DNA of 64,000 nt from Neolewinella aurantiaca (lineage in GTDB: Bacteria > Bacteroidota > Bacteroidia > Chitinophagales > Saprospiraceae), in assembly GCF_008014675.1 (NCBI RefSeq), contig NZ_VOXD01000028.1:1-64000 (forward strand), read 5' to 3'. Positions within the stretch are counted from its first letter, which is position 1. Each line of letters opens with the position of its first letter. The notes below the pieces were generated by a model. That model saw nothing but the letters and a program-made list of their open reading frames with translations, searched no databases and was not told the origin of the DNA. This document shows, in pieces, positions 5,108-59,691 of the stretch. A program made the position numbers and the translations under genes.

Positions 5108-5114
5108 AGCTGGG

Positions 5115-40406: not shown

Positions 40407-43400
40407 GTCTTAATCCTTCTTGTGATGGATGATGCTCCGGAGGCAATTTATTTGAAATACATTGAACTTTCTTCTGAAGTCTTAATCCTTCTTGTGATGG
40501 ATGATGCTCCGGAGGAATGCTGGTTCATTACTTTTATTATGTTAGTTATGGTCTTAATCCTTCTTGTGATGGATGATGCTCCGGAGGATAGTTTCTTACC
40601 TCACATCGGCGTACAACGGGCAGTCTTAATCCTTCTTGTGATGGATGATGCTCCGGAGGTGGGTTGCCAAAAACAAAGAGGGAAAGTATCTAGGAGTCTT
40701 AATCCTTCTTGTGATGGATGATGCTCCGGAGGTGAAGGCACTGAGCAATATGGTTCAGGATATGGGGTCTTAATCCTTCTTGTGATGGATGATGCTCCGG
40801 AGGTCGAAGACCTTGCATACGCCCTCGAACTGACGGGGTCTTAATCCTTCTTGTGATGGATGATGCTCCGGAGGTTAGGCCCCAGGCAATTACCCGCATT
40901 CCTACGCAGGTCTTAATCCTTCTTGTGATGGATGATGCTCCGGAGGACCCGCTCACCCTGGCACATCCTAGCGGATACAGTCTTAATCCTTCTTGTGATG
41001 GATGATGCTCCGGAGGGGTTCTTTCGGAGCACTCTCCGTAGATGAAATTACAGTCTTAATCCTTCTTGTGATGGATGATGCTCCGGAGGTTACAATTAAA
41101 AGCAGTTCGGCAATCATTGCCGAAGTCTTAATCCTTCTTGTGATGGATGATGCTCCGGAGGAAGACGTTATTGAGCTAACCACCGAAGATCTGTCTTAAT
41201 CCTTCTTGTGATGGATGATGCTCCGGAGGTCTTACCTCACGTCTGCCTACAACGGGCAGGTTAACGGTCTTAATCCTTCTTGTGATGGATGATGCTCCGG
41301 AGGCATGTGGCTGAACCATAACACACCATCTGTTGGTGGTCTTAATCCTTCTTGTGATGGATGATGCTCCGGAGGTATCTTGATGCCGTTCCTGGGTAAC
41401 ACCAACTACTGTCTTAATCCTTCTTGTGATGGATGATGCTCCGGAGGAACTACTGCTGTATCTTTAGGTACGCATAATTTGTCTTAATCCTTCTTGTGAT
41501 GGATGATGCTCCGGAGGCGCCGGCACGGTCACCCATTGCGCACCCTATGATGTGTCTTAATCCTTCTTGTGATGGATGATGCTCCGGAGGTTTGCCGAAG
41601 AGGTATGTCGGCCAGACGCGGAGATGTCTTAATCCTTCTTGTGATGGATGATGCTCCGGAGGACTACATTCTTTTTAAATGGATACTTTACGGTTAGTCT
41701 TAATCCTTCTTGTGATGGATGATGCTCCGGAGGTGATGCCTTACCTGGGCAATACCAATTACTTCGGTCTTGATCCTTCTTGTGATGGATGATGCTCCGG
41801 AGGTTTGATGTGGTTGAAACCACATTACTCTACATTTTTGGCTCCCTCTCCGCTGAGCCTTAGGCGAAGCTTGTTGGAGAGGGCGGGGGGAGAGGGGGAA
41901 AATCAAAATGTAGAGTAGTATTGGTTGAATCATAACACCCCATCCGTGGTCTTAATCCTTCTTGTGATGGATGATGCTCCGGAGGACCCGCAAACAATTT
42001 TTGCAAACGTGCAAGGAAGTCTTAATCCTTCTTGTGATGGATGATGCTCCGGAGGCTTATATTACTAGCTCTAGCAACATTATTCATTGTCTTAATCCTT
42101 CTTGTGATGGATGATGCTCCGGAGGCGAAAGAAGGTGTTATATACACAGTGAGACTCCTGGTCTTAATCCTTCTTGTGATGGATGATGCTCCGGAGGAGT
42201 ACAAAATACTTAAGAAGAATGAGGTAGCACTAGTCTTAATCCTTCTTGTGATGGATGATGCTCCGGAGGACGGATTTCGTTTAACAATGGGAGAAATACT
42301 TCCTGTCTTAATCCTTCTTGTGATGGATGATGCTCCGGAGGTGCAAAGACACCCACGACGTAAACGTTGGGATCATAGTCTTAATCCTTCTTGTGATGGA
42401 TGATGCTCCGGAGGTGGGAGAACTACGGTCTATTAAGGATGACTTATACGAGTCTTAATCCTTCTTGTGATGGATGATGCTCCGGAGGGGTCAGAATCTA
42501 TGAACTATGAGAAGCTCATTAAGGTCTTAATCCTTCTTGTGATGGATGATGCTCCGGAGGGAATGGATTTCTATTCTTTGGAACAAATGTAGATAGTCTT
42601 AATCCTTCTTGTGATGGATGATGCTCCGGAGGACTTACCACCGGCGCCGAAGTCGCCGGAGCAAATGTCTTAATCCTTCTTGTGATGGATGATGCTCCGG
42701 AGGAACCCTTCACCATCTTATTAAACACTCTTAAATTCGTCTTAATCCTTCTTGTGATGGATGATGCTCCGGAGGCGCTACTGCTGATGCCGATGTCCTT
42801 TCGACTCAGAACTAAGGTCTTAATCCTTCTTGTGATGGATGATGCTCCGGAGGCTGATGCCGATGTCCTTTCGACTCAGAACTAAGGTCTTAATCCTTCT
42901 TGTGATGGATGATGCTCCGGAGGGAAGGATCTATGTGCTTTTACGCAGAACATTCTGTCTTAATCCTTCTTGTGATGGATGATGCTCCGGAGGGCTGAAA
43001 AGCCGGAGTCAAGGTTAAAATTCACCTTGTCTTAATCCTTCTTGTGATGGATGATGCTCCGGAGGTTCGCGTTTGACCTCGCAAGAGTGTACAACGTTCG
43101 TCTTAATCCTTCTTGTGATGGATGATGCTCCGGAGGAGTTACAATTTAATCTTTAATATGGTCCTTAATCTGTCTTAATCCTTCTTGTGATGGATGATGC
43201 TCCGGAGGGAATAATAGTTTTTACCGGTGGGGGAGTTCGGAAGTCTTAATCCTTCTTGTGATGGATGATGCTCCGGAGGAATTGGCGGCCCTGCAATACG
43301 TTGGGGCAACGAAGTCTTAATCCTTCTTGTGATGGATGATGCTCCGGAGGTTTTCGACGGGGAGCCAATCGGGCTGGATGAAGAGTCTTAATCCTTCTTG

Positions 43401-45433
43401 TGATGGATGATGCTCCGGAGGGGCAGCGTTCAGGAGTTTGCAAACCTGCTCAACACAGTCTTAATCCTTCTTGTGATGGATGATGCTCCGGAGGCCATCC
43501 AGCGGCCCGGTTTTGGGCGTGAATGCGGTCTTAATCCTTCTTGTGATGGATGATGCTCTGGAGGAAAACGTTAAAGTTCTTGCCGAAGAACTCATTAAGT
43601 CTTAATCCTTCTTGTGATGGATGATGCTCCGGAGGACCTAAAGAGCCTCCGTACCTTGAGACGGTGCAAGGTCTTAATCCTTCTTGTGATGGATGATGCT
43701 CCGGAGGTTCCTTTATCGTCTCCCATGTAACATGGGTGGGAGTCTTAATCCTTCTTGTGATGGATGATGCTCCGGAGGCGGTTTCGTCAGTTGGCAGTAA
43801 ACATTAGAAAACAAGTCTTAATCCTTCTTGTGATGGATGATGCTCCGGAGGTTGGGCTGGTAATTACCGTCATCTCCTGAACCAATTGTCTTAATCCTTC
43901 TTGTGATGGATGATGCTCCGGAGGTACCAGCGTAGATCGCCGTGGAAATGAGACGGTGAGTCTTAATCCTTCTTGTGATGGATGATGCTCCGGAGGTGAA
44001 CCCGAAGACCGCTTCGGCGATTATCGGGTTGTCTTAATCCTTCTTGTGATGGATGATGCTCCGGAGGCCCCTACAAAGGTTTGTAGGGGGAAATTACAAA
44101 ATGTCTTAATCCTTCTTGTGATGGATGATGCTCCGGAGGTACTAATTTAGTGCCGCTCACACCTGAGCCCGTAAGTCTTAATCCTTCTTGTGATGGATGA
44201 TGCTCCGGAGGTTTATCCTTTTGCGATGACTGGTTTAGATTTAATCGTCTTAATCCTTCTTGTGATGGATGATGCTCCGGAGGCAAAGAAATCAATGAAG
44301 CCCACAACGAAGCTGTAAGTCTTAATCCTTCTTGTGATGGATGATGCTCCGGAGGCCAGTACAGCAGCTTGGTCCGGGTCGAAACCGGCGGTCTTAATCC
44401 TTCTTGTGATGGATGATGCTCCGGAGGTCCCGCAAGCTCAGCTTCCCACCCTGACCGTTTCAAGTCTTAATCCTTCTTGTGATGGATGATGCTCCGGAGG
44501 TGTTATGAAGACATGTAATCATGCAGAAGAACTGGTCTTAATCCTTCTTGTGATGGATGATGCTCCGGAGGCTGTTTCGCGGATGTAAATGTTGCGGGCA
44601 ACCCGGTCTTAATCCTTCTTGTGATGGATGATGCTCCGGAGGGCGTACAAAGTAAATAACGCTATCTTCGTGGAAGAGTCTTAATCCTTCTTGTGATGGA
44701 TGATGCTCCGGAGGAACGCAGAGAAATGCACATAAGATCAATATTATCAGGTCTTAATCCTTCTTGTGATGGATGATGCTCCGGAGGAATGAAGAAATCA
44801 ATTCTTGGGATGAACAACAAAGTCTTAATCCTTCTTGTGATGGATGATGCTCCGGAGGGTGCTGCTCTGTTTTCTTACATTGAAGCTGCTGTCTTAATCC
44901 TTCTTGTGATGGATGATGCTCCGGAGGCAATAGCTCAGGAATGGAATAAAATAAAACACAGAGTCTTAATCCTTCTTGTGATGGATGATGCTCCGGAGGA
45001 TAAAGTCGGAGTTTTCCGACTTTGTAAAGGTAGTCTTAATCCTTCTTGTGATGGATGATGCTCCGGAGGCAAGAAGCCCAATAAGCACAAGGCTGAATTT
45101 CAAAGAGTCTTAATCCTTCTTGTGATGGATGATGCTCCGGAGGCTAAACGACCTAATTGCTATAACAACCAAAAGACAGTCTTAATCCTTCTTGTGATGG
45201 ATGATGCTCCGGAGGAATTGGAGAAAACTACGAGTTGGAGTTTTTGGGCAAAGTCTTAATCCTTCTTGTGATGGATGATGCTCCGGAGGTTGGACCTTCG
45301 GCTGTTTACGATTTTGCCCTAACTAGTCTTAATCCTTCTTGTGATGGATGATGCTCCGGAGGCACGTTTGAAGATACTTTAAAAATTGATGGGAGGGTCT
45401 TAATCCTTCTTGTGATGGATGATGCTCCGGAGG
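40407..45433 (-). CRISPR. Type III-A CRISPR array, 69 repeats of 37 bp, 68 spacers
   Basis: I located 69 copies of a 37-bp repeat (plus strand GTCTTAATCC...GCTCCGGAGG), nearly all identical. Exceptions are 41767 (position 6 A to G) and 43528 (CTGG for CCGG). Spacers are mostly 31-37 nt; one is 41 nt, and one is 145 nt because of an insertion. The leader and cas2 lie at the right end, and the minus-strand repeat ends in ATTAAGAC, a good type III 8-nt crRNA tag, so transcription should run leftwards with the newest spacers on the right. Several spacers read as sense codons on the plus strand, so their crRNAs would be antisense to mRNA, as a type III effector requires. Six spacers hold strong hairpins. 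Confidence 0.97.
41819..41921. mobile_element. MITE-like insertion inside spacer 20
   Basis: A 103-bp element lies within a single spacer (41804-41948), flanked by an 8-bp direct repeat TGGTTGAA (41811-41818 and 41922-41929). Near its ends are inverted repeats TACTCTACATTTT and AAAATGTAGAGTA. The middle has a CCCTCTCC/GGAGAGGG stem. It has no coding capacity. Deleting the element and one repeat copy restores a 34-nt spacer that encodes the same peptide as spacer 13, which is strong support for a true insertion. Confidence 0.8.
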
Positions 45434-45568
45434 AGTTCTTTTTCTAATATATTTGTTTTCAGCTTGTTATGCCTGTTCCGGAGAAGGGTAGGCTTGGCTT
45501 TCACCGCCAAAAGTGACTTTTCTTTAATCTCTTGCTGCATAGCCGGTAGGGATTACGACACGAATATA
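45434..45568 (-). promoter_or_regulatory. CRISPR leader
   Basis: A 135-bp AT-rich stretch between the last repeat and the cas2 stop codon. On the minus strand it holds a TTGGC-GGTGAAA-GCCAA hairpin and TATATTAG about 15 nt before the first repeat. It is non-coding. Its position beside cas2 and its composition fit a leader carrying the array promoter and integration signals. Confidence 0.65.
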
Positions 45569-46036
45569 TTAAAAAAAGAGTGTATTCGGAGGGTCCGTTA
45601 TCAATTGTATGTCCACATTTTGCCCGATAAGTTTCATCCCCCGTACGTCACTGCTGTTTACGGGAACAAGGATGATACTGTCATCGTTGGCGTACAACTC
45701 GTTAACTTCACGCAACGTGTCGTGGATTTCTTCAAATCGTGCGTTTGCGGTCTTGATCAGGTAAACACTTTTCTGGATGCGGGTACAGCCCGCAGTAATG
45801 AGGTAGTTCGCGATTTCTCGCCGAACCTTATTGTCGGTAATATCGTACATTATCAGGTAAACCATCGCATCTGCTTTGATAGGGGCGGCCTGGATGATAC
45901 CAAGAATTTGAGCCACGCGTTCGTTAAGGTCAGGTAGTTGATCGTCCGGAGGAATTCGGCCGGGCGGTGGCTGGATACCTGCTTGCGTAATGTGTTCCAG
46001 CCTTTCTTTGAGGCTACGCCGTTGTCTTTTCGCCAC
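45569..46036 (-). CDS. cas2: Cas2 with N-terminal extension
   Basis: A 155-residue protein. The Cas2 ferredoxin-like core starts at residue 58 (MVYLIMYDITDNKVRREIANYL), with the conserved early Asp (D65) and RIQKSVYLI, and a core of about 98 residues. The first 57 residues are a charged, proline-containing extension (KRQRRSLKERLEH...) not found in classic Cas2. The ATG at 46036 lies only 6 bp after the stop of the upstream gene and no stop separates it from the core, so I keep the long form. A start at 45865 would give standard Cas2. Cas2 bridges Cas1 dimers during spacer integration. Confidence 0.92.
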   Translation of the reverse strand: MAKRQRRSLKERLEHITQAGIQPPPGRIPPDDQLPDLNERVAQILGIIQAAPIKADAMVYLIMYDITDNKVRREIANYLITAGCTRIQKSVYLIKTANARFEEIHDTLREVNELYANDDSIILVPVNSSDVRGMKLIGQNVDIQLITDPPNTLFF

Positions 46037-46042
46037 ATCGTT

Positions 46043-47098
46043 TTAATTGAGCTGATCAAAACGATCATGGAGTAGTTCCCGGAGTACTTTGGCTGCCAAT
46101 TCCGCCAGTTCTGCGTGACTGCCGCTTTTGGTTGTTTTGACTATCGTAAAGCCTCTTTTGCCGTAGAAAAGGTTCAGCTCGCACCAGATTCCTTTGTTTG
46201 CCATGATGCGCAGCCGCCGGCCGTAACTGATGGCTTCGTTATCCGTTAGCCGGAGGTCGTATTCCGAAAGGTTCTCTTTAAAGTAGTCAATAGCGCTACT
46301 GATTTCTTCGGGCTGCACTATCGTTCTTTCCTTACTTGATTTTCGGCGTTTGGGGTTTAGCTTCTGGCGGATGTTCCCGAGGGTCTCTTCGTCCGGGCCG
46401 GCAATCGCCTTTTTGTTTTTTGCCGCCGGCTGCGGTAACCGTGGTGCTCTTTCCTGTTCCGTACCTGATGGCAGGGCGAGTGGCTCGGTCAGGTAGTTGT
46501 TCAGTTCTACCGGAGCAGCATTCGGATGATAAAACGCTTCGGGGTCGTAGCTCATAAAACAGGCACGGGTAACATCACAGGTCTGGTAGTCAACCACGTG
46601 TTCCCAGCCGTGCTCTCTTGCGAATTTGCGGGCGAAAGCCTGATAAAAGGCATGAAAACGCGCCGCATCACTGCAGGGCGTGGCAAGCCGGAAGAGCACT
46701 TTGTAGCCATCGCCACCAGGGCTGGTAAAACCAAGCAGCGGCCGGGGCAGCCCCGACAGTTTATCCCGTACCTCTGCCGCCGTCAGGTTTCCGTCCGCCA
46801 GGTGGTCCAGGTCAAGAATGAAATAATGAATAGTAGCGAAGTGCTGCTTGCGGCGAATAGAAGGGTGGAAGATGCCGCATACGATGTACGGTAGTGTTTT
46901 TTTCAACTGACGATACTTTGCGGTATCCACCGAGGCAATGGTTCGCAAACGGCTGATCATATCCCGGAAAGCTGGTTTCGGGCGCGTCAGGCCCTGAAAA
47001 ATACGTTCAACGTGAACCCGCTCCAGAGGATCAGACGGAGCAGTAAGCTTTCGGCCCAGCATTAGTGGAGGAAGGTCATAAGTGGCGGGTTGAGACAT
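46043..47098 (-). CDS. CRISPR-associated primase-polymerase (BT4734-like AEP, CAPP)
   Basis: A 351-residue archaeo-eukaryotic primase (prim-pol) of the BT4734/VirE-N-like type. Motif I is IHYFILDLDHL (catalytic D96, D98), motif II is GFTSPGGDGYKVLFRL (about 123-138), and motif III lies in VVDYQTCDVTRACFMSYDP (D170). The C-terminal third (about 255-351) is a separate basic helical domain. Prim-pols of this family encoded with Cas1 and Cas2 in type III loci are the known CAPPs, thought to make or fill the DNA that becomes a spacer. The gene sits between cas1 (51 bp) and cas2 (6 bp) on the same strand, so a three-gene adaptation operon is likely. Confidence 0.85.
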   Translation of the reverse strand: MSQPATYDLPPLMLGRKLTAPSDPLERVHVERIFQGLTRPKPAFRDMISRLRTIASVDTAKYRQLKKTLPYIVCGIFHPSIRRKQHFATIHYFILDLDHLADGNLTAAEVRDKLSGLPRPLLGFTSPGGDGYKVLFRLATPCSDAARFHAFYQAFARKFAREHGWEHVVDYQTCDVTRACFMSYDPEAFYHPNAAPVELNNYLTEPLALPSGTEQERAPRLPQPAAKNKKAIAGPDEETLGNIRQKLNPKRRKSSKERTIVQPEEISSAIDYFKENLSEYDLRLTDNEAISYGRRLRIMANKGIWCELNLFYGKRGFTIVKTTKSGSHAELAELAAKVLRELLHDRFDQLN

Positions 47099-47149
47099 AG
47101 CGGCAAATATTGAATCAGTGCGGAATGTTGTAGTGCGGTGAGGCCCTGT

Positions 47150-48154
47150 TTAGTGCTCCGAAGGGAGCTTGACGGGCGAGTATTCCAGAAAGAATTTAGC
47201 GAGAGCGTGTGCTTCCCTTTGCAGGTGTTCCTGCCGGGATCTGCGGAGTGCGCCACGCTGAATAACTTCGGCGAGGTAGTCGTTTACCGATTGGATGACG
47301 ATCCGTTTGCCCAGGCCGTCCAGCATCCGGGCCTGTCCTTCCCAGCGGAAACACTCCTCCGTCATGGCTTCCTGCCGGCACAACTGCAGAACAACATAAT
47401 CCACCCAAATGCGGTAGCGCTCGATGATGTCGTAAACTAAAGCAGGTCGGTTGTAGCCATCACGGTGAAAAATTCCGAGGTATGGGTCTACTCCGGCACG
47501 GATCAGAGCGCCTTCAATTTTTCCGTACAGCATTCCGTAGCCATAGTTGAGCATTGCGTTGAAGTCATCGGCAGCAGGGTGTTGGCTTCGGCGTTCAAAC
47601 CGATAGCCCTCCGGGAGGTAGGCACTGATGAGCTGAAAGTATTTGCGGGAGGCGGCTCCTTCCCATCCCCGCAGCGTGGGGGCGGCGTCCTCCAGCCGGC
47701 TGTCATTCAGGGCCTTTACTTTACTGCGGTAGTCTTCCATCGCCCGGATGCCCCGGTTGATGCGCCGCCGCAGCGGGTCTTCGCTGTCAATCTGCAGCGT
47801 TAGCAGAAGAGCGACCTGATTGTCGATCTTTTCCCGCACCAGTTCTTTGACCCACTCCAGCGCCTCGGGGCCATAGAAGAAATCGAGTTGCTTGCGGCGG
47901 ATGTCACTGATGGAACCGAATTTTACGCTCCAGACCCGCCCCTGCGGGTTGCCGCTGTGGTCGACAAAAACAACGTCGATCTGGTTCTCGATGGCCAGCA
48001 GCACGGCGTCTGATGTCATCTTCGCGCCTTTGCCTACGTTGATACTACGGATTTGGCTTGGGTTGAGCCGCTGTTCTGCCTGGGCGGTTTTAATCAGGAA
48101 ATTACCGTGGTCTCGTTGCAACGAAGCACCGTAACTATTCAGGATGATGTGCAT
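47150..48154 (-). CDS. cas1: Cas1 integrase
   Basis: A 334-residue Cas1 of normal length. The N-terminal beta domain begins MHIILNSYGASLQRDHGNF. The catalytic helical domain has GWEGAASRKYF (E165), GIFHRDGYNRPALVYDIIE (H230, D242/E245) and a long C-terminal helix. Cas1 catalyses insertion of new spacers at the leader end. It is separate from, not fused to, the primase encoded downstream, unlike RT-Cas1 proteins. It heads the cas1-CAPP-cas2 set; the REP pair and the helicase gene lie upstream. Confidence 0.96.
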   Translation of the reverse strand: MHIILNSYGASLQRDHGNFLIKTAQAEQRLNPSQIRSINVGKGAKMTSDAVLLAIENQIDVVFVDHSGNPQGRVWSVKFGSISDIRRKQLDFFYGPEALEWVKELVREKIDNQVALLLTLQIDSEDPLRRRINRGIRAMEDYRSKVKALNDSRLEDAAPTLRGWEGAASRKYFQLISAYLPEGYRFERRSQHPAADDFNAMLNYGYGMLYGKIEGALIRAGVDPYLGIFHRDGYNRPALVYDIIERYRIWVDYVVLQLCRQEAMTEECFRWEGQARMLDGLGKRIVIQSVNDYLAEVIQRGALRRSRQEHLQREAHALAKFFLEYSPVKLPSEH

Positions 48155-48296: not shown

Positions 48297-49757
48297 TCAG
48301 TGTATTTTGACTTTCCTGACCGGCTTGCCGCCTTTCCGGATGTGTTTCAGTTCCAGTTGCTTGCTGGCCCGCGTCACGGCGGTGTACAGCCAGCGGTACC
48401 GGCTCTCCGGGGGCAGCATGTTGATCGTTTCGCTGAGGTTGAGGAAGATGGTGTCCCACTCGCCGCCCTGGGCTTTGTGGCAGGTGACTGCGTAGCCGAA
48501 CTTAGCGCGTAGGGCGTTGAGGAACTTATCTTCGCGCATGGCCTCGAGGTAGGCTTCCGATTTTCGCTTCAGCCCCCGCTTGCGGGCCCGCTTGTCGAAA
48601 TCGATGAGCAGCTTACGAAAATCATCCCCGCTGAAGTTGGCCCGCTGGTCGAACAGGAAATCGTAGAGCAGCGGTACTTCGTGGACCTCTCCGGTATTGA
48701 CGTCTTCCGCTTTGATGGTCAGGAAGAAGAAGCCCCCCGATTTCCCCAGCGGGCGCGCATCGCGCACCAGTACCTGATCGCCGTTGGCCAGCGGTACCAG
48801 GTGATTATTCTGGACAACCTGCAGCAGCTCGTTGCGCTGCAATCGGTGAAGTTGTTTGGGTGGGTACCGCTTGGCCCGGACGATGTTGTTGAGGTAATGG
48901 GTTTGCTTGTTGGAGTGGGTAATGATGAGCGCCGCGGCAAAGTCGTCTTTCGTGGCGGCCAGGTAGCGGTCGGCCATCAGCGCCTGGGTGTAGGGGGTGA
49001 AGAAGGGCGAGTCGGGCTTTTTCAGCACCGGCTGCCAGTTCTTTCTGGTTTCTCCCCGGTCCACGTAGCCCCGCAGTTCGGTGGCCAGGGCGAGTACGGG
49101 GTTGTCTTCCTTCTGCCGGATGACGTGGCGGAGCTCCCGCTCCGTTACCCCGAGGCCGTAGGTGGCGCGCAGAAATTCCGCATCCAGCGCGCTGGAAAAG
49201 GGCTCTTTGCCTACCGGCGGCGGCAGCTGTACGGGGTCGCCGATGAAGAGCACTTTATGCTTACCCACGAAGTGGAAGAAGTCGGCCAGCATACTGCCCG
49301 AGCCAAAGCGGGTGGCGCTTTCGCCCGAGCCCTCCAGGTGAGAGAGCATACTGGCCTCGTCGATGATGAACAGGTAGTTGTCTTTCGCGTCCTGTTCCGG
49401 TTCGCGCAGCCCGAAAGTGAGCATCAGCTGACCGGTCTTTTCGTCGTAGTCTTCGTCCTCGGCGGCCTGCCCGTCGTCCACTCCCTCAAAGCGGTAAATA
49501 TAGCTGTGGACGGTGGTGGCCGCCACGCCGGTTTTTCGGCTCAGCACCTTGGCCGCCCGGCCGGTGCTGGCCATCAGCACCGGCGTGACGCCGGCTTTGC
49601 TTGCTTCGAGGTGCCGCAGCAGGAAACTGACCAGGGTGGTCTTGCCCGTGCCGGCGTAACCTTTGAGGAGGAATACCTGGTGATCATTGCCCGCCACGAA
49701 GGCCTGCAGACGGGTGAAGATTTGCTGTTGGTGAGGGGTGAGTTGGAGGGAAGACAT
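48297..49757 (-). CDS. RecD-like SF1B DNA helicase
   Basis: A 486-residue helicase. The frame is open to 49868, but the ATG at 49757 (MSSLQLTPHQQQ) is the natural start; the extra part is unrelated intergenic sequence. Motifs: Walker A GYAGTGKTT (about 33-41), STGRAAKVLSRKTG (motif Ia), LFIIDEASML (motif II), FIGDPVQLPP (motif III), and the C-terminal AVTCHKAQGGEWDTIFLN and WLYTAVTRAS (motifs V/VI). It belongs to the short RecD/AAA_30-UvrD_C_2 type. Such genes are common housekeeping genes in Bacteroidota, so its position between cas1 and the decayed array may be chance, although a role in processing DNA for adaptation is possible. Confidence 0.88.
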   Translation of the reverse strand: MSSLQLTPHQQQIFTRLQAFVAGNDHQVFLLKGYAGTGKTTLVSFLLRHLEASKAGVTPVLMASTGRAAKVLSRKTGVAATTVHSYIYRFEGVDDGQAAEDEDYDEKTGQLMLTFGLREPEQDAKDNYLFIIDEASMLSHLEGSGESATRFGSGSMLADFFHFVGKHKVLFIGDPVQLPPPVGKEPFSSALDAEFLRATYGLGVTERELRHVIRQKEDNPVLALATELRGYVDRGETRKNWQPVLKKPDSPFFTPYTQALMADRYLAATKDDFAAALIITHSNKQTHYLNNIVRAKRYPPKQLHRLQRNELLQVVQNNHLVPLANGDQVLVRDARPLGKSGGFFFLTIKAEDVNTGEVHEVPLLYDFLFDQRANFSGDDFRKLLIDFDKRARKRGLKRKSEAYLEAMREDKFLNALRAKFGYAVTCHKAQGGEWDTIFLNLSETINMLPPESRYRWLYTAVTRASKQLELKHIRKGGKPVRKVKIH

Positions 49758-49861
49758 GGGGTGATGGATTACGTAATTGAGCAGGCCGCCAACGGGCACT
49801 GTGCGATTGTCCTGTAGGGCACAAGAGGCCCTATGGGGTACGAGCCCGCGTACGGGCGAAC

Positions 49862-50225
49862 AAATCAATCCTTCTTGTAAGGGACGGGGCCCTGCGCACT
49901 CACTTCAAGGCGTGAGGGGAGGGGAGATCCTTGTTTTGGGGGATGGGTTGGTGTCCATTTACTGGAAGCATACCAAACGCCAAGCGTCTTAATCCTTCTT
50001 GTAATGGGTAAAGTTTCGGAGGACTGGGCCTTCTTCGAGATTGAGCCCAACGAGAACAAGTCTTAATCCCTCTTGTGGTGGATGAGGCTCCGAAGTTAAG
50101 AAGAGTATCGCCGATACCCGAGTCCTGATCGGCCTTAATCCTTCTTTTGATGGATGGGGCCGTTAATTTACAGGAAGAATACCAAAAGCCAAGTGTCATA
50201 ATCCTTCTTTTGTAGGCGCGGCTAT
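49862..50225 (-). CRISPR. Decayed second CRISPR array (about six degenerate repeats)
   Basis: Six degraded copies of the main repeat start near 49862, 49921, 49986, 50060, 50132 and 50195 in the same orientation. The best ones (49986: GTCTTAATCCTTCTTGTAAT; 50060: GTCTTAATCCCTCTTGTGGT) differ from the consensus at several sites, and the outer ones at many. Intervals of 59-74 bp still show array spacing. The segments before 49986 and 50195 are related to each other (CATTTACTGGAAGCATACC versus AATTTACAGGAAGAATACC). No leader or cas gene flanks it directly. It lies in the 525-bp gap between the helicase and csm6 genes, which holds nothing else recognisable. Confidence 0.8.
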
Positions 50226-50282: not shown

Positions 50283-51764
50283 TTACATTGGATTTAACTG
50301 CATACGACCTAGTGCCTCGAAAATTTCCTGATTAATTCGATCAAATCCAGAAATGTCTTGCGAAGAAAGAAAAATATCGTCCAAACTTGCAATTAATTGT
50401 TCAAGAGATGCACTGTTCTTCTTCAGCTCTTTCTCGATAATAGGCCGACTAACAGGTTCAAAATCGTGTGCGCCAATACTTTTATTACGAAGATCATTAA
50501 GTGAAATGATAAGGTTGAAGTTCTTTGCTTCTGTTGGTTCATAGTATTTCCAGATGGCAAGGTAAGCTGGCACTCCTTGAAATGAAATATCTATCTTCCC
50601 ATTGCCTCCTGGGGCATTCATTTTCTCAGTTGCTTCAAATAAATTGCTATAATTAGCGTCCTGCCGCATGGCCTTAATCTGCGATTCCCACCGCTTTTTG
50701 TTGACATTAACCTCTATACCTGGCAATAAACGACCGACTTGTGTTCTCACATATTCCTCAGTAAGTCTGTATAGTCGTAGAAGAAAGTCTACATAGTTTT
50801 CGTTTTCGAGCTTAATTCTTGCGTTACGGTAGAGTTCTTTCACCTTGTTTCGCTCCGCGTATTGTATTGACTTGAGTATAGTTCGCTTGAGCTTTGTGTC
50901 ACGAATAGCATTAGCTTTATGTTTAGCGCGATCAAAATCAAAACCTAGTCTTGCATCGAGAGATTCGGTAGCCTTAATCACATCCTCAGGTAAACTGTTC
51001 AAGGTTTTTATCGCAGAATAGTTATAATTTTCGATTAGTCGTTTGGCTTGGTAACTTTCACGTTCTCTCTGATAGTGGATTGGGAAATTGGTGAGCGAAG
51101 CAACACCAAATTCTTCAGAGACACTTAATTGGCGAACTTTTTCACCAAATCGGTTAAGAAGTGCAAGCGATAGACTTTGGTTGATGGCGTCTATCCCGCC
51201 AAGGTTTAGCAAGTAGAGGTTTTGCCTGCTTGAGTTAAAATTATTAAAAAGTTGATCTGACTTAACGTAAGTAAAGAAACGCAAGCTGTTTTCTACATAG
51301 TCCTGTACGCTGTCTGTTACACGCTTAACCTGAAAATCAGTTTCACTCAATTCATCAAAATGTAGGGGTACAATACGTTTGAGTAGCTCAGCAAAGTGGA
51401 TGCTATCGTTTGCACGATACCGCTCATCGATCTCGGTGGATTGATCTGTTACTATAAAGATAATTTTACCAATCCTATTCAGACCTGGCTTCTCTTCCTC
51501 GCTCTCCATTCTCAAAAAATCAAGTGCGGGCTTCAAGATTGGGAATTCCAATTCAAGCAATTGTTTTTGCTTTCCAGAATTGTTCTCGTATCCCTTAGTA
51601 TGCTTCAGTACAGCTTGCCCGAAAACTCGTGGAATTACAAGTCTATCTATATTGGGGCGATATAATTTCTTCGATTTTTCACCAAACCATTCTTCGGCAG
51701 TTGATTTGGGTAGCTGAACATCTCTAGTACCCAATGTCACGATAAGTATATCTTTGTTATTCAT
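50283..51764 (-). CDS. csm6: Csm6-like CARF-HEPN ribonuclease
   Basis: A 493-residue accessory nuclease. The N-terminal CARF domain starts DILIVTLGTRDVQ, with further Rossmann-like strands at IIFIVTDQS (about 101-109) and LYLLNLGGIDAINQSLSLAL (about 183-202); these bind cyclic oligoadenylate. The C-terminal HEPN domain has LNDLRNKSIGAH, that is R426-x6-H433, the RNase active site. It should cut RNA non-specifically when activated by the Cas10 product. Its start shares a base with the csm5 stop (51764), so it is the last gene of the csm operon. It is a little longer than the usual Csm6 (about 430). Confidence 0.88.
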   Translation of the reverse strand: MNNKDILIVTLGTRDVQLPKSTAEEWFGEKSKKLYRPNIDRLVIPRVFGQAVLKHTKGYENNSGKQKQLLELEFPILKPALDFLRMESEEEKPGLNRIGKIIFIVTDQSTEIDERYRANDSIHFAELLKRIVPLHFDELSETDFQVKRVTDSVQDYVENSLRFFTYVKSDQLFNNFNSSRQNLYLLNLGGIDAINQSLSLALLNRFGEKVRQLSVSEEFGVASLTNFPIHYQRERESYQAKRLIENYNYSAIKTLNSLPEDVIKATESLDARLGFDFDRAKHKANAIRDTKLKRTILKSIQYAERNKVKELYRNARIKLENENYVDFLLRLYRLTEEYVRTQVGRLLPGIEVNVNKKRWESQIKAMRQDANYSNLFEATEKMNAPGGNGKIDISFQGVPAYLAIWKYYEPTEAKNFNLIISLNDLRNKSIGAHDFEPVSRPIIEKELKKNSASLEQLIASLDDIFLSSQDISGFDRINQEIFEALGRMQLNPM

Positions 51765-53335
51765 TATTTGATGATTTTTAGCCCACGTTGTGCTATTATT
51801 TTTTTCCCTTGGAGCATTACTGTAATTTCTACAATTTTGCCCGTAGCGACCCCGGCAGGGTAAGAAATTTCAAGATTGGTGTTGTTGTGACCTTCTAACT
51901 GGGGTGCGACAATTACTTTATTTCCTCGGGTATTCTTAACTATGGCTAAAACCTTTACACCACGTTTTAGCTGCTTCACAGTTTTCTGCACCAGCTTAGG
52001 CTTAGCATCAGGTGTTGACGTACCTGCCGGAAGTTTAGCAGAGGACACTTCTTGCGTTACGGGCTTATTTATGATAGTTGCTTGTTTTTGTTGCCTTTCC
52101 TTTTGCTGGCGCTTGAGGTGAGGTGCTGCGGCTTCTGGAGTCAGCAGCTGGATGAATCCAAGCAGATAAAAGCGGTAATCCTCTTTTTGCTCATCCCAGT
52201 CAAAGGCTAGGCGGCGGGATTTCATTCTTTTCTCTTCGATTATTTCTTCTCCTCTTCTCTTTTTTTTGAACTTAAGGGGTATTGACAGAGTAGAAAGATG
52301 ATTTTCAACTTGATAGTCTCCGGTGACTGCATGAAAGCCGGAACCATATCCAAGCCTGAGGAGTGGACTGTTAGCCGAATTAACCGCTTGAAGCCTTTTT
52401 AGTTCCTTAAGAATAAGGTCAGACTTATCACCCTCTAGCTCCGTGAAGAAATCGATTTCTCGTTGGAGATATTCACTGGTGTATTCATAGAGGGCAGTGA
52501 AGAAATATTCCAAGGGAGAGGGAGTCGTAAGTAGTTGAGTGGCCTTTGCAGGAACGCTCCTGATTGTTCGCTTATTTTGTCTTGAAATCCCTTGGTCTAT
52601 CTTACGTTGCTCTTCTTTAGCAGCTTGTCGGTATTGCGCTAAATCACTGGACCGAAGCCTCAAGCGAAGTTTACCAACTTGTCCCGGAGGAACAGTTTGT
52701 AGAGTGGTGGCGAAACCATCATTCTGGAAATCATTTTCGTTGTTACCGCTACCTGATCGGTATTTCCATCTCCCTTCCCAACGCTCGCTCCTCCTATCTA
52801 AATGACCGTTATAGACCCGGGAGTTATACAATTTTCCAGGATGGTCAAAATAAACATCACTCACCTGAACGAAGCGCATAATCGAGTTGGCAAACTGTCC
52901 GAATACGTCTCGATCGTTATTCTGAGCAATGCTACCACCAAAGGCTTTGAACAGTGCGGACCGGATACCTCCTTTAAGAGATGTGCCGGGCAGGTAAGGA
53001 AAGCCGGTTTTGCCTTCCGCGATCATGCGATGTAGTTGCATTCCGCTTCCCTCAATTTCTCCAACCTTGCCACAATAGTCGGGATACTTACGTAGTCCCC
53101 GCTGTCGCAATACTTCCTTAAAGCCAGCTGGACCTTTTTCCAGGGCCTGTACATAGTAATCTAAACCGATACGTTCGATAACCTTGCGCTCGTTCACTTT
53201 CCAGATAGTGGTAGGACCATTGTCTATTCCTTCTTCAAAGTAGTCAAAGCCCTTATCCCAATGCTTTTCCTGTTCTCCCCCAATGTGCAGTGGCGTTTGG
53301 GTGAGCACGTAGAGTTCGTAAGTATTGTTCGTCAT
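51764..53335 (-). CDS. csm5: Csm5 with C-terminal OB-like extension
   Basis: A 523-residue RAMP protein that caps the crRNA 3' side of the Csm complex. It begins with the RAMP strand ELYVLTQTPLHIGG and has the Csm5 hallmark GFPYLPGTSLKGGIRSALF (about 111-129) and the glycine-rich LGYGSGFHAVTGD (about 328-340). The RAMP core ends near residue 400. A charged linker (401-450) then leads to a beta-rich segment of about 70 residues (VKVLAIVKNTRGNKVIV... to LKIIK) that looks like a small OB/S1-type fold. Usual Csm5 proteins are about 340-400 residues, so this tail is extra. The gene abuts csm6 and csm4 (shared bases at both ends). Confidence 0.9.
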   Translation of the reverse strand: MTNNTYELYVLTQTPLHIGGEQEKHWDKGFDYFEEGIDNGPTTIWKVNERKVIERIGLDYYVQALEKGPAGFKEVLRQRGLRKYPDYCGKVGEIEGSGMQLHRMIAEGKTGFPYLPGTSLKGGIRSALFKAFGGSIAQNNDRDVFGQFANSIMRFVQVSDVYFDHPGKLYNSRVYNGHLDRRSERWEGRWKYRSGSGNNENDFQNDGFATTLQTVPPGQVGKLRLRLRSSDLAQYRQAAKEEQRKIDQGISRQNKRTIRSVPAKATQLLTTPSPLEYFFTALYEYTSEYLQREIDFFTELEGDKSDLILKELKRLQAVNSANSPLLRLGYGSGFHAVTGDYQVENHLSTLSIPLKFKKKRRGEEIIEEKRMKSRRLAFDWDEQKEDYRFYLLGFIQLLTPEAAAPHLKRQQKERQQKQATIINKPVTQEVSSAKLPAGTSTPDAKPKLVQKTVKQLKRGVKVLAIVKNTRGNKVIVAPQLEGHNNTNLEISYPAGVATGKIVEITVMLQGKKIIAQRGLKIIK

Positions 53336-54360
53336 TAGTTAACAGGTTTGCAGGGTAGAAAAATGGCTTGTCCGTTACGCCAAACCGGATGGGGTAGTAA
53401 AGGCTGGCCGTTTTCATCTAACGGCCCAAGGTTGATAGCTTTTCTCCCGGCTTGTTTGTCTGAGGTCTTTAGTACGCTCCCCTCCGCTAGCATCCCGATT
53501 GACCGTTTACGCAACGTGCGGCCATCTGCCCCCGTCACCCATCCTCCGCGCCGCACAACGCGGTAAGTAGTTTTAGCCCCTTCTGTATCGAGCATACTGC
53601 TGAGTTGAGCAGCGTTCTCGGGGCAGAACAAAGAAAGGTTTACAGCATGAGAAGCATCCTTAGGGTGTTCCAACGTGATGTTATCGTGCTTAAATTCAAA
53701 AAGGCCATTGCCAACGCTCCGGTCAGTACCCAGTCCTTCATTTTGTAACAAATGCAAGGCACTTTCGAGGCGTTGTTTTGCCGCATCGTCGCCATCAAAA
53801 AGGAAGAAAAGCCCCGCCTTGGAACTGAAGAAGAGTCGCTGGCTGATAAAGGGAATAGCATCTTTTTCTTCACGAGAAACCGTCACCCGTTGTCCAGTTG
53901 TGGCCGTCGCAACGGGATTTTTCTCCGGCAGTGTGGAAGAAGTCAGATATATCCCTTGCAAATTAGGTTGTCCTGAACCACCGAAATCAACCGGGGTGCC
54001 ATTCAGTAAATGTCCAAGATATTCAGTGTCCACCCAGCGTACCCGCTTGAGCTTTTTGGCGTAGTCGATCTCGTCTTTGCCGAGGTCAAAGTTTAGAAGC
54101 GGCTTCGGAAAGAAGTAAATAGTCTTACCTGAAGTATCCTGCCCAAAAGGGAAGCAGGAACTGAGTGTATAGCCCGGTCCTTCTAAACCTGGTACTGGCT
54201 CGCCCATTTTAGCCATAGTGGCCAAGAGCGCAGCGTGAAGGCTGTCTGAGTGCAAAAAGTCGGCACTCTTTGCGTAATCATCCGGTCGGTCGTCTCCTAG
54301 ATGGACCGGACCAGTGAAGGTGAGTCGGTATAGTTGGTAGGAAGTAGATACTTTGCTCAT
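53335..54360 (-). CDS. csm4: Csm4 RAMP protein
   Basis: A protein of about 341 residues. The frame is open to 54417, but the ATG at 54360 (MSKVSTSYQLYRLTF) starts the first RAMP strand and lies 7 bp after the csm3 stop, so I choose it. Family features: YRLTFTGPVHLGDDRPDDY, SADFLHSDSLHAALLATM, an ISQRLFFSSKAGLFFLF strand and the G-rich GLGTDRSVGNGLFEF near the middle. Csm4 binds the 5' tag of the crRNA and contacts Cas10. Its end touches the start of csm5. Confidence 0.92.
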   Translation of the reverse strand: MSKVSTSYQLYRLTFTGPVHLGDDRPDDYAKSADFLHSDSLHAALLATMAKMGEPVPGLEGPGYTLSSCFPFGQDTSGKTIYFFPKPLLNFDLGKDEIDYAKKLKRVRWVDTEYLGHLLNGTPVDFGGSGQPNLQGIYLTSSTLPEKNPVATATTGQRVTVSREEKDAIPFISQRLFFSSKAGLFFLFDGDDAAKQRLESALHLLQNEGLGTDRSVGNGLFEFKHDNITLEHPKDASHAVNLSLFCPENAAQLSSMLDTEGAKTTYRVVRRGGWVTGADGRTLRKRSIGMLAEGSVLKTSDKQAGRKAINLGPLDENGQPLLPHPVWRNGQAIFLPCKPVN

Positions 54361-54367
54361 GTTCAAC

Positions 54368-55033
54368 TTACTTGGCACCTGCGTACTCGCCCGGATATAA
54401 TATCTGGGGCTTTTCAAAGTCCATATCGATCTGTACCTGCCCGTAGCCCCGTGAACCGCTACCTCCCAGATAGTCCGCCTCCAGTAGTTGAATGCCCTCT
54501 TTTAGCAAGGCGATCTGTTCAGCTTCGCTGGCCTCGTCTTCGCCAGACCAGATATTGACGATAAGCTCTATGCTGAAAATGGAACCGACTGGTACTCGCT
54601 CTGTTTTACGAGGATTACCCGCTATTCCCTTCACCCGGTCAATCGAGTTTTCAAACTTTACTTCCGTGTAAGGATAATCGGTATAAATTGATTCACTTAG
54701 GGCTTTTTCACTCTCTTCGGTCAAATAGCTATCCCGAACGATAAGACGACTGGCACGGTTATCAGACTTCTTATTTTCGATGTTCCCAAAGAGTTTATTT
54801 ACCTCTTCGCTATCACCGACATTAGCAGCCCCTCGAGTCTGTTCTAACAGACTCCGAATTTTTCCTTTGAGGGAACTTCCGGGAATGTAGGGTTGGTTGT
54901 TATCTGGGCGACGCACTACCGTACGGTCAATTCCGCCAATATCAACCTGTTCGTTACTGTCACCGATGTACAAGCCAGATAGCAAGTGTAGGGAGCCTTT
55001 GAAGGCGATTTTTTTGATTAGTTTTTTACTCAT
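54368..55033 (-). CDS. csm3: Csm3 backbone ribonuclease
   Basis: A 221-residue backbone subunit of normal length. IAFKGSLHLLSGLYIGDS is the first RAMP strand. VDIGGIDRTVVRRP carries the catalytic Asp (D36, in the GGID motif) that cuts target RNA every 6 nt. PYIPGSSLKGKIRSLLEQ is the diagnostic Csm3 loop, and the C-terminal LGGSGSRGYGQVQ is the glycine-rich RNA-binding loop. With the active-site Asp intact, target RNA cleavage should be functional. It sits between csm2 (8 bp) and csm4 (7 bp). Confidence 0.95.
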   Translation of the reverse strand: MSKKLIKKIAFKGSLHLLSGLYIGDSNEQVDIGGIDRTVVRRPDNNQPYIPGSSLKGKIRSLLEQTRGAANVGDSEEVNKLFGNIENKKSDNRASRLIVRDSYLTEESEKALSESIYTDYPYTEVKFENSIDRVKGIAGNPRKTERVPVGSIFSIELIVNIWSGEDEASEAEQIALLKEGIQLLEADYLGGSGSRGYGQVQIDMDFEKPQILYPGEYAGAK

Positions 55034-55041
55034 TTGATAAA

Positions 55042-55467
55042 TTATTGTGCACCATTATTTGCTTTGTGAAAGGCGACTATGGCCTCAATCATTTTGATAA
55101 AGCGAAGGAATTTGCTTTTATCCTGTTCAACTGCTAATAGGCCAGGCATTACAAGGTCTTTGAATTCCTTAACTCCTGGCTTTCCTTTACGTCCTGTATC
55201 ATACGCTAGCCGTGCGCGGAGCATCGGAACGTCATTATTATACTTTTCAAAATCACCTTCTATTCTACGTATCTCTCCGAAGAATCGGCGAAGGCTGGAG
55301 GCAGTTAATTTTTTCTCTACGAGGTACTTTCCCGCCTCTTCCGCCCAGTCTACAGCAGCATTATCAATAGCATGTGCATCAGTTATCCACTTGGTATCAA
55401 TTTTTCGCGGCGGCGGCTTACGATTAGCTTCACGATCTCTGTTCCGGTTTCTGTTATGGTCAGGCAT
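55042..55467 (-). CDS. csm2: Csm2 small subunit
   Basis: A protein of about 141 residues. The open frame extends to 55545 inside cas10, but the ATG at 55467 (MPDHNRNRNRD) overlaps the cas10 stop by 8 bp and is the likely coupled start. A basic, disordered N-terminus precedes a helical bundle (KYLVEKKLTASSLRRFFGEIRRI, FLRFIKMIEAIVAFHK) that matches Csm2. It forms the belly filament of the complex. The long Arg/Asn-rich N-terminus (about 30 residues) may aid RNA contact. Confidence 0.9.
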   Translation of the reverse strand: MPDHNRNRNRDREANRKPPPRKIDTKWITDAHAIDNAAVDWAEEAGKYLVEKKLTASSLRRFFGEIRRIEGDFEKYNNDVPMLRARLAYDTGRKGKPGVKEFKDLVMPGLLAVEQDKSKFLRFIKMIEAIVAFHKANNGAQ

Positions 55468-58069: not shown

Positions 58070-58804
58070 TTAGGTTTTACTGTTGCTTAGCTCAGTTGCT
58101 AAGATGTCGGGTGATTGTTTAGCTTTCGGTTTACGAGCAGTGCGCAAAACACCAAAACCCATACTGGCCCCCTTGCCTAAACCAATATATTCAGGCAGGC
58201 TTAAATTGACCGAAAAGTCAATATTAAAGGTACGAATGGATTGTCCTTTGAAAGAACGCCAGCTAACTCTACCTAGCTTTCTTATTTTCACAGTAAGGCG
58301 TTCCTCAACTCGAAATCCCATTCCTTTACATGCTGATAAAATATTGCCTGTAAGAATTTTTTCTAAAAAGGCTACCTGCTTACTCAAACTCTCTTTTTCG
58401 AGTTTTTGCCACTGTGCGTAGTTTTTCTGATTGAGTGCCTGCCAGTCGAATAGACGATACTCTATGTCACTAGACCATGTCTGTAATAACACCTGCTGTA
58501 AGTTTACTCGATCTACCGAAAGCGCTTCTTGTCTTTTCCCAATCCGTAACGATATTTCTTGTTTTCCCAGAAAATGATGAATTAGATCAGTGCCTTCTTC
58601 CAGGCAAAAAAGAGCAGCCTGTCGATTGACACTTTTGTATTGGATTAGAGGGTAGCGATAATAATAGGTATTGTCGCTACGATGGTTGTGGAAGATATTG
58701 TGTTCCCGGTCAGTAGCTTCAATAACGGCTGCACGGAATTGACTAATCTCATCCGGAGCGAGAGGGGTCGCCAATTGAATGAACAGGGTTTTTATTTTTT
58801 TCAT
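58070..58804 (-). CDS. cas6: Cas6 crRNA endonuclease, paralogue 1
   Basis: A 244-residue Cas6-like RAMP that should cut pre-crRNA within repeats. It starts IKTLFIQLATPLAPDE, has NIFHNHRSDNTYYYRYPLIQYK (about 36-57; the His residues are candidates for catalysis) and ends with the glycine-rich loop EYIGLGKGASMGFGVL (about 205-220), then a basic tail. It shares the same layout with the protein encoded at 59011 (FHNH, RYPLIQYK, IEYR, GLGKG), so the two are diverged paralogues. It lies 60 bp upstream of cas10 on the same strand. Confidence 0.85.
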   Translation of the reverse strand: MKKIKTLFIQLATPLAPDEISQFRAAVIEATDREHNIFHNHRSDNTYYYRYPLIQYKSVNRQAALFCLEEGTDLIHHFLGKQEISLRIGKRQEALSVDRVNLQQVLLQTWSSDIEYRLFDWQALNQKNYAQWQKLEKESLSKQVAFLEKILTGNILSACKGMGFRVEERLTVKIRKLGRVSWRSFKGQSIRTFNIDFSVNLSLPEYIGLGKGASMGFGVLRTARKPKAKQSPDILATELSNSKT

Positions 58805-59010: not shown

Positions 59011-59691
59011 TTAGCTGTTTAGGGGTTCGACGATGCCATGGCCAATGCTTACGCCTTTGCCGAGTCCGATCCAGGTGGGGAGATTTACGTTGGTGGAGAA
59101 GTTCAGATCAAAAGCCAGCAGTTGCTGGCCCTTAAATCGGACTATCCGGGGAAGACTGAGCTTTTCGAGAGAAACATGGACCTTGCCGTCGACCCACCAA
59201 TTGATTCCTTTTGCAAAAGCCAGGATATTGCCTCGTAATGTTGCGGTAAGCAACTCGGCACGAACTTCATCCTGACCTTCCAACGATTGCCAGCGGGTGT
59301 ACCGCTGCTGATTGAAAGGCAGGTAGTTTGAAATCCGGTACTCAATAGGGGAGGCGGTCAATGAGACATCACAGTAACGGAGTTGCATATCCATTACCTT
59401 AAATGTTTGCTGTTTGCGGCCTATTCGCAGGTCGAGATTCTGTGCCTGAAATAGTTGGTGAATATCATTTGTGCCGTCCTCCAGGCAAACAATGCCGGCA
59501 TGTCCCTCTTCCAGAAGCTTGTACTGGATTAGTGGGTAGCGATAGATGACTTTTGTATCGTTATCCTTGTGATTGTGAAATAAGTCACTTTTTCGCTCCG
59601 TCTTTTCGATGACGGCGGAACGAAAAAAACGTACTTCATCAGGGTGGATTCGCTTGTCAAATTGTACCGATAGGTAACGGATGGGTTTCAA
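59011..59691 (-). CDS. cas6: Cas6 crRNA endonuclease, paralogue 2
   Basis: A 226-residue Cas6-like RAMP with the same plan as paralogue 1: RYLSVQFDKRIHPDEVRFFRSAV, DLFHNHKDND then RYPLIQYKLL, SPIEYRISNYLPFN, and the closing glycine-rich loop TWIGLGKGVSIGHGIVE (about 206-222). It is the first gene of the minus-strand csm transcript, starting 102 bp from the divergent WYL gene. Two Cas6 proteins for one repeat type is redundant. One may serve the decayed array or a distant array, or they may have come with different effector modules. Confidence 0.85.
   Translation of the reverse strand: MKPIRYLSVQFDKRIHPDEVRFFRSAVIEKTERKSDLFHNHKDNDTKVIYRYPLIQYKLLEEGHAGIVCLEDGTNDIHQLFQAQNLDLRIGRKQQTFKVMDMQLRYCDVSLTASPIEYRISNYLPFNQQRYTRWQSLEGQDEVRAELLTATLRGNILAFAKGINWWVDGKVHVSLEKLSLPRIVRFKGQQLLAFDLNFSTNVNLPTWIGLGKGVSIGHGIVEPLNS

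Follow-up and report, generated by a model that had tools for sequence, protein, structure and literature searches.

A class B CAPP gene between cas1 and cas2 of a type III-A CRISPR locus in Neolewinella aurantiaca and its possible role in prespacer synthesis

Organization of the locus

The window analyzed in this study is a stretch of 64,000 nucleotides (positions 1 to 64,000) of contig NZ_VOXD01000028.1 from Neolewinella aurantiaca (assembly GCF_008014675.1), and its subject is a CRISPR adaptation operon in which a gene for a CRISPR-associated primase-polymerase (CAPP, a Prim-Pol) is situated between cas1 and cas2. All three genes lie on the minus strand: cas1 at 47150-48154 (Pfam PF01867, E 6.3e-66), the Prim-Pol gene at 46043-47098 (351 aa) and cas2 at 45569-46036 (155 aa, GTG start; PF09827, E 1.6e-13). 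The coordinates of the open reading frames (ORFs) leave 51 bp between cas1 and the Prim-Pol gene and 6 bp between the latter and cas2, exactly the spacing given in a preliminary description of the sequence. The order of transcription is a RecD/Pif1-like helicase gene (48297-49868, minus strand; ORF and family matches), cas1, the Prim-Pol gene, cas2, a 136-bp leader (45433-45568) and a CRISPR array (40407-45432) of 69 repeats and 68 spacer units. The cas1 gene was the only one found in the genome by Pfam search. Upstream on the same strand lies an interference module, which comprises two tandem cas6b-like genes (58070-58804 and 59011-59691; Pfam), cas10 with csm2, csm3, csm4 and csm5 (51764-58009; Pfam and PADLOC), and a gene for a Csx1/Csm6-like CARF-HEPN effector (50283-51764; PADLOC E 3.5e-38). 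With cas10/csm1 and csm2-csm5 present, the locus is of type III-A.

Identification of the Prim-Pol

The protein was matched by the Pfam profile BT4734-like_N (PF08800; E 3.6e-17, residues 65-190) and by the PrimPol profile of PADLOC (6.6e-23). The catalytic domain of the archaeo-eukaryotic primase (AEP)/Prim-Pol type thus corresponds to 46529-46906 on the minus strand and contains D96, D98 and D170. In a 34-row alignment (A3) of the window protein with 33 relatives from phages and mobile genetic elements, R52, K66, D96, D98 (LDLDH), S126, G129, G131, K133, D170, R178 and D185 were invariant. A BT4734-like AEP with an intact DxD and motif II/III residues had been recognized earlier, and the profile search, which places the protein within the AEP/BT4734-like family, the PADLOC match and the aligned motifs all agree with that assignment.

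The AlphaFold2 model of the protein was good at residues 11-200 (means of 10-residue blocks 84-98, with one of 69). The best Foldseek matches were AEP polymerases, including LigD-Pol (4mky, E 6.3e-5), at low TM-scores (0.23-0.28) and large root-mean-square deviations. VIA-align gave Z 8.4 for S-2L PrimPol, 7.2 for Prim-PolC and 5.7-5.8 for the Marinitoga CAPP structures (7nqd, 7nqe, 7nqf, 7p9j). As 2atz (HP0184), which is not known to be an AEP, reached Z 7.0, level with Prim-PolC, the lower Z values prove little alone; given this score and the low TM-scores, the sequence profile and the motifs weigh more than the fold search. The window protein is a Prim-Pol on the grounds of its sequence, and the AEP fold is supported by prediction.

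Assignment to CAPP class B, distribution and phylogeny

Class B of the CAPPs was defined by Zabrady et al. (2021; PMC8211822) as a VirE-N AEP with no other readily discernible domains, and the available text of that paper describes the class as nearly restricted to Bacteroidetes and found mostly in type III operons. DbCAPP, from a Dysgonamonadaceae bacterium, sits between cas1 and cas2 and binds Cas1, as does the product of its RecD-like neighbor; it is an active DNA primase-polymerase whose activity is abolished by an AxA mutation of the DxD (PMC8211822). The window CAPP resembles it in the VirE-N AEP domain, the cas1-CAPP-cas2 order, the RecD-like neighbor and the type III setting, with D96/D98 as the catalytic DxD instead of D86/D88. 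The CAPP arrangement proposed in the preliminary description is therefore borne out in its published sense, and the window locus is almost certainly a class B CAPP locus. The two loci differ in that the window Csm genes adjoin the Csx1/Csm6-like CARF-HEPN gene, whereas the Dysgonamonadaceae locus has Can2 according to the available text of PMC8211822, in whose description of DbCAPP we found no mention of an extended Cas2 or of a TBP-like C-terminus. Class A (Marinitoga CAPP-TPR, CAPP-RT and CAPP-helicase) likewise has a CRISPR-linked Prim-Pol of AEP fold beside cas1/cas2, whereas in the window CAPP a Pfam scan found no further discernible domain, be it TPR, reverse transcriptase (RT) or helicase, and no Argonaute was among the identified neighbors. 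The VirE/BT4734-type primases (PF08800) of phages and mobile elements belong to the same catalytic family; in alignment A3 they are 17-23% identical to the window protein, and they are mostly long (582-1045 residues) and fall outside the cas-linked clade.

The cas1-CAPP-cas2 order was found in 36 loci including the window, namely 16 of an order set, 6 of a class set and 14 of a family set (cas1 of L153 would lie past its contig end, and about 1.3 kb separates CAPP and cas2 in L281 and L282). Such recurrence argues against chance. In the order set, 30 Prim-Pol matches beyond the window had frames of <470 residues, of which 14 were cas-linked; long-frame matches were covered only via G206, which holds CAPP locus L128, and a few more CAPP loci may hide among them. 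A RecD-like gene was labelled in 18 of the 36 loci, many on short contigs, and did not always adjoin cas1. In a maximum-likelihood tree, 35 cas-linked CAPPs lay on one side of a branch with support 100/99, recovered in 100% of 200 bootstrap trees, the comparison set being 23 VirE-type and 15 stand-alone relatives; L153, cut by the contig end, was left out, and the tree was built without the DbCAPP sequence. This single clade suggests that the link of CAPP to cas1-cas2 arose once. Pairwise distances in 34 loci were correlated between CAPP and Cas1 (r 0.87), Cas1 and Cas2 (r 0.85) and Cas2 and CAPP (r 0.79).

Because the preliminary description had the prim-pol take the place held by an RT in RT-Cas1 systems, the census of 55 non-CAPP cas1 loci of the order (Cas1 scores of about 130-255 bits) bears on that claim. 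An RT was present in 26 of them: in 4 as a fusion with cas1, in 15 ahead of cas1, in 5 after cas2 (one of these a frame of 153 residues) and in 2 on the opposite strand; no locus of the 55 had the order cas1-RT-cas2, L122 having cas2-RT-cas1. Conversely, a profile grown from one RT-Cas1 labelled no RT in the stretches, many of them short, that were fetched for the 36 CAPP loci. The window likewise had no labelled RT, its scanned locus proteins gave no Pfam RT match, and it is thus not an RT-Cas1/CART locus. RT-Cas1/CART systems resemble CAPP loci in tying a copying enzyme to a type III adaptation module with mostly antisense CRISPR RNAs (crRNAs), but, unlike CAPP, the RT mostly precedes cas1 or forms a fusion with it. 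CAPP and RT therefore seem to exclude each other, while occupying different slots, so that the notion of a common place does not stand. According to the available text of PMC10415136, the RTs that have been tested prime on both RNA and DNA.

The catalytic part is followed by about 100 residues that are conserved in 24 aligned CAPPs (YG...AEXNXFYGKXGFSVV...), and in the window protein this domain spans about residues 243-345 (46064-46372, minus strand). TBP-TOTE of Pfam was matched by 9 of the 24 at E up to 1 (best 7.9e-5; the full-length match of L064, 18.5 bits, is below the Pfam cut-off of 27) and RnlA_toxin_N by 3, while the window C-terminus matched neither of the two. RnlA was also among the Foldseek matches with a probability of about 0.7, in a part of the model that is of low confidence, and a sequence search yielded no relevant PDB chain for the CAPP C-terminus. 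The domain is perhaps TATA-binding protein (TBP)-like, which we regard as a lead.

The N-terminal extension of Cas2

The window Cas2 carries 57 residues ahead of its conserved core (45866-46036, minus strand). Such an extension was present in all 36 CAPP loci, its length by the longest frame being 38-97 residues; in L128 the 97 residues probably reflect an early start, about 60 remaining from the next good one. Two blocks of weak conservation, LKEKLxKIxxAGL and LPxLxERIxxIL, can be made out in it by eye, and some lineages have a shorter or different version. The order census yielded 53 Cas2 proteins that come without CAPP, and 50 of them had <=21 residues before the core. Two of the other three (L109, L117) have long frames whose overlap with cas1 exceeds 100 bp and whose starts look misassigned, which leaves L121 as one credible long Cas2. 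In the order set, 15 of the 16 CAPP loci were found independently of the extension, via the original locus, Prim-Pol or cas1; L153 was included after the Prim-Pol and Cas2 searches had both matched its contig. In the class and family sets, CAPP was present in 20 of 24 further long-Cas2 loci.

The extension is a well-supported feature. No mention of it was found in the available text of the CAPP description (PMC8211822) or elsewhere in the literature searched, and it may be new. The same text reports that DbCAPP binds DbCas2 in yeast two-hybrid assays, whereas MpCAPP showed no direct binding of MpCas2 in pull-downs (PMC8211822). This difference, together with the occurrence of the extension in CAPP loci, points to a role as a class B dock for CAPP, which we propose tentatively. 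Several points weigh against it. Long Cas2 proteins without CAPP in the fetched stretch were found in L121, L267, L289, L290 and L291, so CAPP loci are not alone in having the extension; since the class and family loci were retrieved with a long Cas2 query, an unbiased test is offered by the order loci alone; and the two possible helices of the extension were seen only in a single-sequence Cas2 model with a mean predicted local distance difference test score of 42.7, which is of low confidence. As a deletable piece, the extension offers a means of probing the attachment of the polymerase to the Cas1-Cas2 integrase, and it is, like the hairpin and re-sampling signals described below, a lead for bench tests.

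Orientation and origin of the spacers

The array contains 67 exact copies of a 36-nt core of its 37-nt repeat, which on the crRNA strand runs from CCTCCGGAGC to GGATTAAGAC, and two copies with one mismatch; most spacer units are 33-36 nt, and one is split by an insertion. When read in the same sense as the cas genes, the repeats of CAPP arrays end in GGATTAAGAC or close to it, and the leader adjoins cas2 in most of these arrays (that of L263 begins 1.75 kb after cas2). The leader block AGAAAAGTCASTTT is common to the window and two same-genus CAPP loci, L039 and L042, which makes it probable that the array and the cas genes are transcribed the same way. Given the repeat end and the leader side, the minus strand is the source of the window crRNAs. 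Three pairs of window spacers stem from the same site in two diverged relatives, namely units 50/55 (MPYLGNTNY, MPFLGNTNY), 57/66 (SYLTSAYNGQ) and, by eye, 49/56 (WLNHNTPS; unit 49 is the one split by the inserted repeat). All three read as protein on the plus strand, which makes the crRNAs antisense.

For the strand test, a codon model was trained on phage ORFs (held-out accuracy 0.80) and applied to 19 of 20 CAPP arrays, L040 (36 spacers, no clear direction) being left out. The target strand was called coding for 71.6% of 591 CAPP spacers and for over half in each of the 19 arrays (p 2e-26 with spacers treated as independent), which implies about 86% antisense crRNAs. The corresponding values were 64.9% of 370 in RT-linked arrays, 75.0% of 72 in long-Cas2 arrays without CAPP, 68.5% of 73 in a small mixed group without RT, and 53.3% of 704 in arrays without RT whose repeats end in GAAAC (I-B-like by repeat only), as expected for DNA targeting. 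The bias was no weaker in leader-proximal spacers (75% of 57, 81% of 123) than in distal ones (69% of 188, 67% of 223). A model-free test based on closed reading frames agreed weakly for CAPP (35 vs 17, p 0.018) and gave 7 vs 12 (p 0.36) for RT arrays. The agreement of spacers on one strand, noted earlier for several of them, is thus real; it gives no pointer to a transcript source, because RT-linked arrays and long-Cas2 arrays without CAPP share the bias and because in Thermus type III systems the strand bias arises from selection, not acquisition, and is absent without selection (available text of PMC7515739).

Searches for protospacers gave no convincing match for the window array (best E 0.4) or for four other CAPP arrays among 50,697 phage records. 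Four back-translated (degenerate peptide) spacer patterns had no match in viral contigs, and padded spacer peptides had none in phages or PHROGs, their 11-14 residues being too short to mean much. One spacer pattern searched in 21 same-genus genomes matched only the window's own array, and its own genome held no spacer match except via the inserted repeat and an array remnant (40 of 87 candidates scored). A query with the MS2 replicase found 1701 phage records, of which 1287 are named as single-stranded RNA phages, so the collection holds such phages; the five CAPP arrays had no nucleotide match to them there, and an RNA-phage source of the spacers is not supported. Type III spacers without a known match are common, according to the available text of PMC5513706.

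A hairpin signal was found after the fact, counting stems of at least 7 bp against dinucleotide shuffles. Hairpin spacers numbered 23 of 511 in a first set of CAPP arrays (5.7 expected) and 6 of 116 in a new one (1.6), as against 11 of 469 in RT arrays (5.5), 9 of 484 in arrays with neither RT nor CAPP (5.6), 9 of 576 in others (8.1), 17 of 644 in new controls (9.4; array 1 of L309, a non-CRISPR repeat with 3 of 3, was dropped) and 0 of 22 in long-Cas2 arrays without CAPP of the new set (0.5). The background was 1.7% in random phage 36-mers and 1.6% in host loci. With overlapping spacers removed, CAPP arrays had 27 of 612 and controls 35 of 1544 (odds ratio 2.0, p 0.0097); at the level of arrays with at least 15 spacers (14 vs 60), p was 0.025. 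This roughly two-fold effect is uneven among arrays: the new CAPP set alone was not clearly above the new controls, and L263, the largest CAPP array, had 2 of 85 (1.4 expected). Units 6, 19, 26 and 59 are examples from the window, whose set of 68 includes one array-remnant spacer and leaves out split unit 49.

Pairs of overlapping spacers re-sampled from one site were counted after dropping identical copies and near-identical pairs (3 CAPP, 6 controls) and leaving out unit 49. There were 18 among 14,187 pairs in CAPP arrays, 8 among 35,364 in type III-like controls, 2 among 8,567 in other arrays and 2 among 846 in long-Cas2 arrays without CAPP; half of the CAPP count (9 of 18) depends on L045. 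No pair in opposite orientation was found in any group. Several re-sampled sites are, by eye, hairpins themselves, and pair 15/20 of L045 shows a compensatory base-pair change, CCTCGA/TCGAGG vs CCTCAA/TTGAGG. In CAPP arrays, the folding z-scores showed no difference between the target and the crRNA strand (p 0.90; p 0.06 in RT arrays), so nothing marks the hairpins of CAPP spacers as RNA rather than DNA. That the hairpin and re-sampling signals reflect the acquisition mechanism is a lead of low probability. Still rather improbable is the combined idea that an N-terminal arm of Cas2 holds the Prim-Pol while spacers are taken preferentially from folded single strands (hairpins of single-stranded DNA or structured RNA); if true, uptake of folded strands would explain both the hairpin-rich spacers and the recapture of sites from diverged invaders in one orientation. 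The source of duplex prespacers is called unclear by the CAPP authors (PMC8211822), and the two signals lead to a testable prediction on their origin.

Proposed role of CAPP in spacer acquisition

With a probability of roughly 0.7, the docking site aside, we propose that the Prim-Pol works on Cas1-Cas2 of this type III-A system by DNA-templated synthesis of prespacers, perhaps with gap filling in addition; the prespacer synthesis itself, taken as an event in vivo, is probable, if somewhat less secure. Cas1 and Cas2 would carry the Prim-Pol along, in class B perhaps docked on the N-terminal extension of Cas2 as the most plausible site, and the RecD-like helicase would expose single-stranded DNA of the invader. 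CAPP would prime on the exposed strand, probably with a purine ribonucleotide start, and extend the primer to a short duplex, which Cas1-Cas2 would integrate at the leader adjoining cas2; CAPP may afterwards fill the repeat gaps. The array would be transcribed away from cas2, and spacers whose crRNAs are antisense to invader transcripts would be kept, as only these could arm Csm.

Two observations count against this proposal. No experiment on spacer acquisition by a class B locus was found in the literature searched, so far as its available text extends. In addition, catalytic residues have been lost in two CAPPs whose loci retain their arrays: L266 has D96Q, D98T, S126L, K133I and D170F in a degenerate catalytic part, with the C-terminal domain and the Cas2 extension kept, and L049 has D98Q and R178D. 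Catalysis may therefore be dispensable in places, and a structural role of CAPP besides catalysis is possible.

The best-surviving alternative, although an unlikely one, is that CAPP acts only after integration, filling and displacing the repeat gaps, and makes no prespacers. CAPPs do show strand-displacement activity, and filling of repeat gaps after integration was proposed by their authors as one role (PMC8211822); a close coupling to Cas1 and Cas2 would also fit. Under this explanation, however, the priming activity would be superfluous. To our knowledge, moreover, most CRISPR systems cope without a dedicated gap-filling enzyme, which also counts against it.

DNA-templated prespacer synthesis has also to be weighed against the copying of phage RNA or transcripts into spacer precursors in the manner of an RT, which the preliminary description had considered and which we regard as improbable. 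The excess of antisense calls in each of the 19 CAPP arrays, the richness in hairpins over controls, the single orientation of the re-sampled sites and the lack of a convincing phage protospacer for five arrays and of viral-contig matches for four peptide patterns would all suit it. Both characterized CAPPs, one of them of class B, nevertheless favor DNA templates and perform poorly on RNA (PMC8211822); the antisense bias is common to RT-linked and long-Cas2 arrays without CAPP and attributable to selection in Thermus (PMC7515739), the folding of the two strands shows no difference in CAPP arrays, and matchless type III spacers are common in any case (PMC5513706). Equally improbable is a mainly structural, nucleic-acid-holding part for CAPP in the Cas1-Cas2 complex with catalysis secondary, since the two losses among 35 CAPPs, the conserved C-terminal domain and the inactive CAPP parts retained in RT fusions (available text of PMC10415136) stand against D96 kept in 34 and D98 in 33 of the 35 CAPPs covering these sites, and against the activity of DbCAPP and its loss by AxA (PMC8211822).

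The locus thus belongs to a published class, to which the Cas2 extension may be a new addition besides the weaker leads. As array, leader, operon, helicase and Csm genes lie complete on one contig, it is a usable model system for class B.

Additional observations

An Rfam scan of the window gave no match at gathering scores. Judged by eye, the helicase may truly start at an internal ATG near 49757. Between the helicase and Csx1 genes lies a decayed array remnant (49986-50167, minus strand) of three degenerate repeat copies (6, 4 and 10 mismatches), with the repeat and orientation of the main array; beside its repeats, the stretches 49957-50000 and 50166-50209 are 89% alike. The 146-nt "spacer" of unit 49 (41803-41948) is a normal spacer split by an element of about 105 bp (41819-41923) resembling repetitive extragenic palindromes or miniature inverted-repeat transposable elements. 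Another 49 pieces matching this element occur at other places in the genome, and the insertion is bordered, as judged by eye, by a GGTTGAA-like duplication. The tandem cas6b-like genes have diverged from each other within the one type III-A locus.

Other occupants of the gap between cas1 and cas2 were seen in non-CAPP loci. In L121, a 275-aa ORF (5004-5831; weak DUF7308 match) takes the CAPP slot between cas1 and the long Cas2; its comparison with CAPP by hhalign detected no relationship (probability 0.1-0.3%). Eight loci (L129, L131, L134, L139, L141, L143, L149, L151) have a small protein there which, by eye, carries a signal peptide, a C-terminal membrane helix and a VGCICMDxxRxDxxGRGACxGxGGVRFW-like block; that of L134, the one tested, had no Pfam match. 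Adaptation modules linked to transmembrane proteins are mentioned in the available text of PMC10910872. The order RT-cas1-X-cas2 occurs in L118, L130, L133 and L138, with X resembling a YhcG/DUF1016 PDDEXK nuclease (Pfam match in L130, the sole one tested). Finally, the stand-alone-RT array of L123 resembles the CAPP arrays, with stems of at least 6 bp in 7 of 44 spacers (1.3 expected), 4 re-sampled pairs and 82% called antisense, and it is a candidate for spacers derived from structured RNA.

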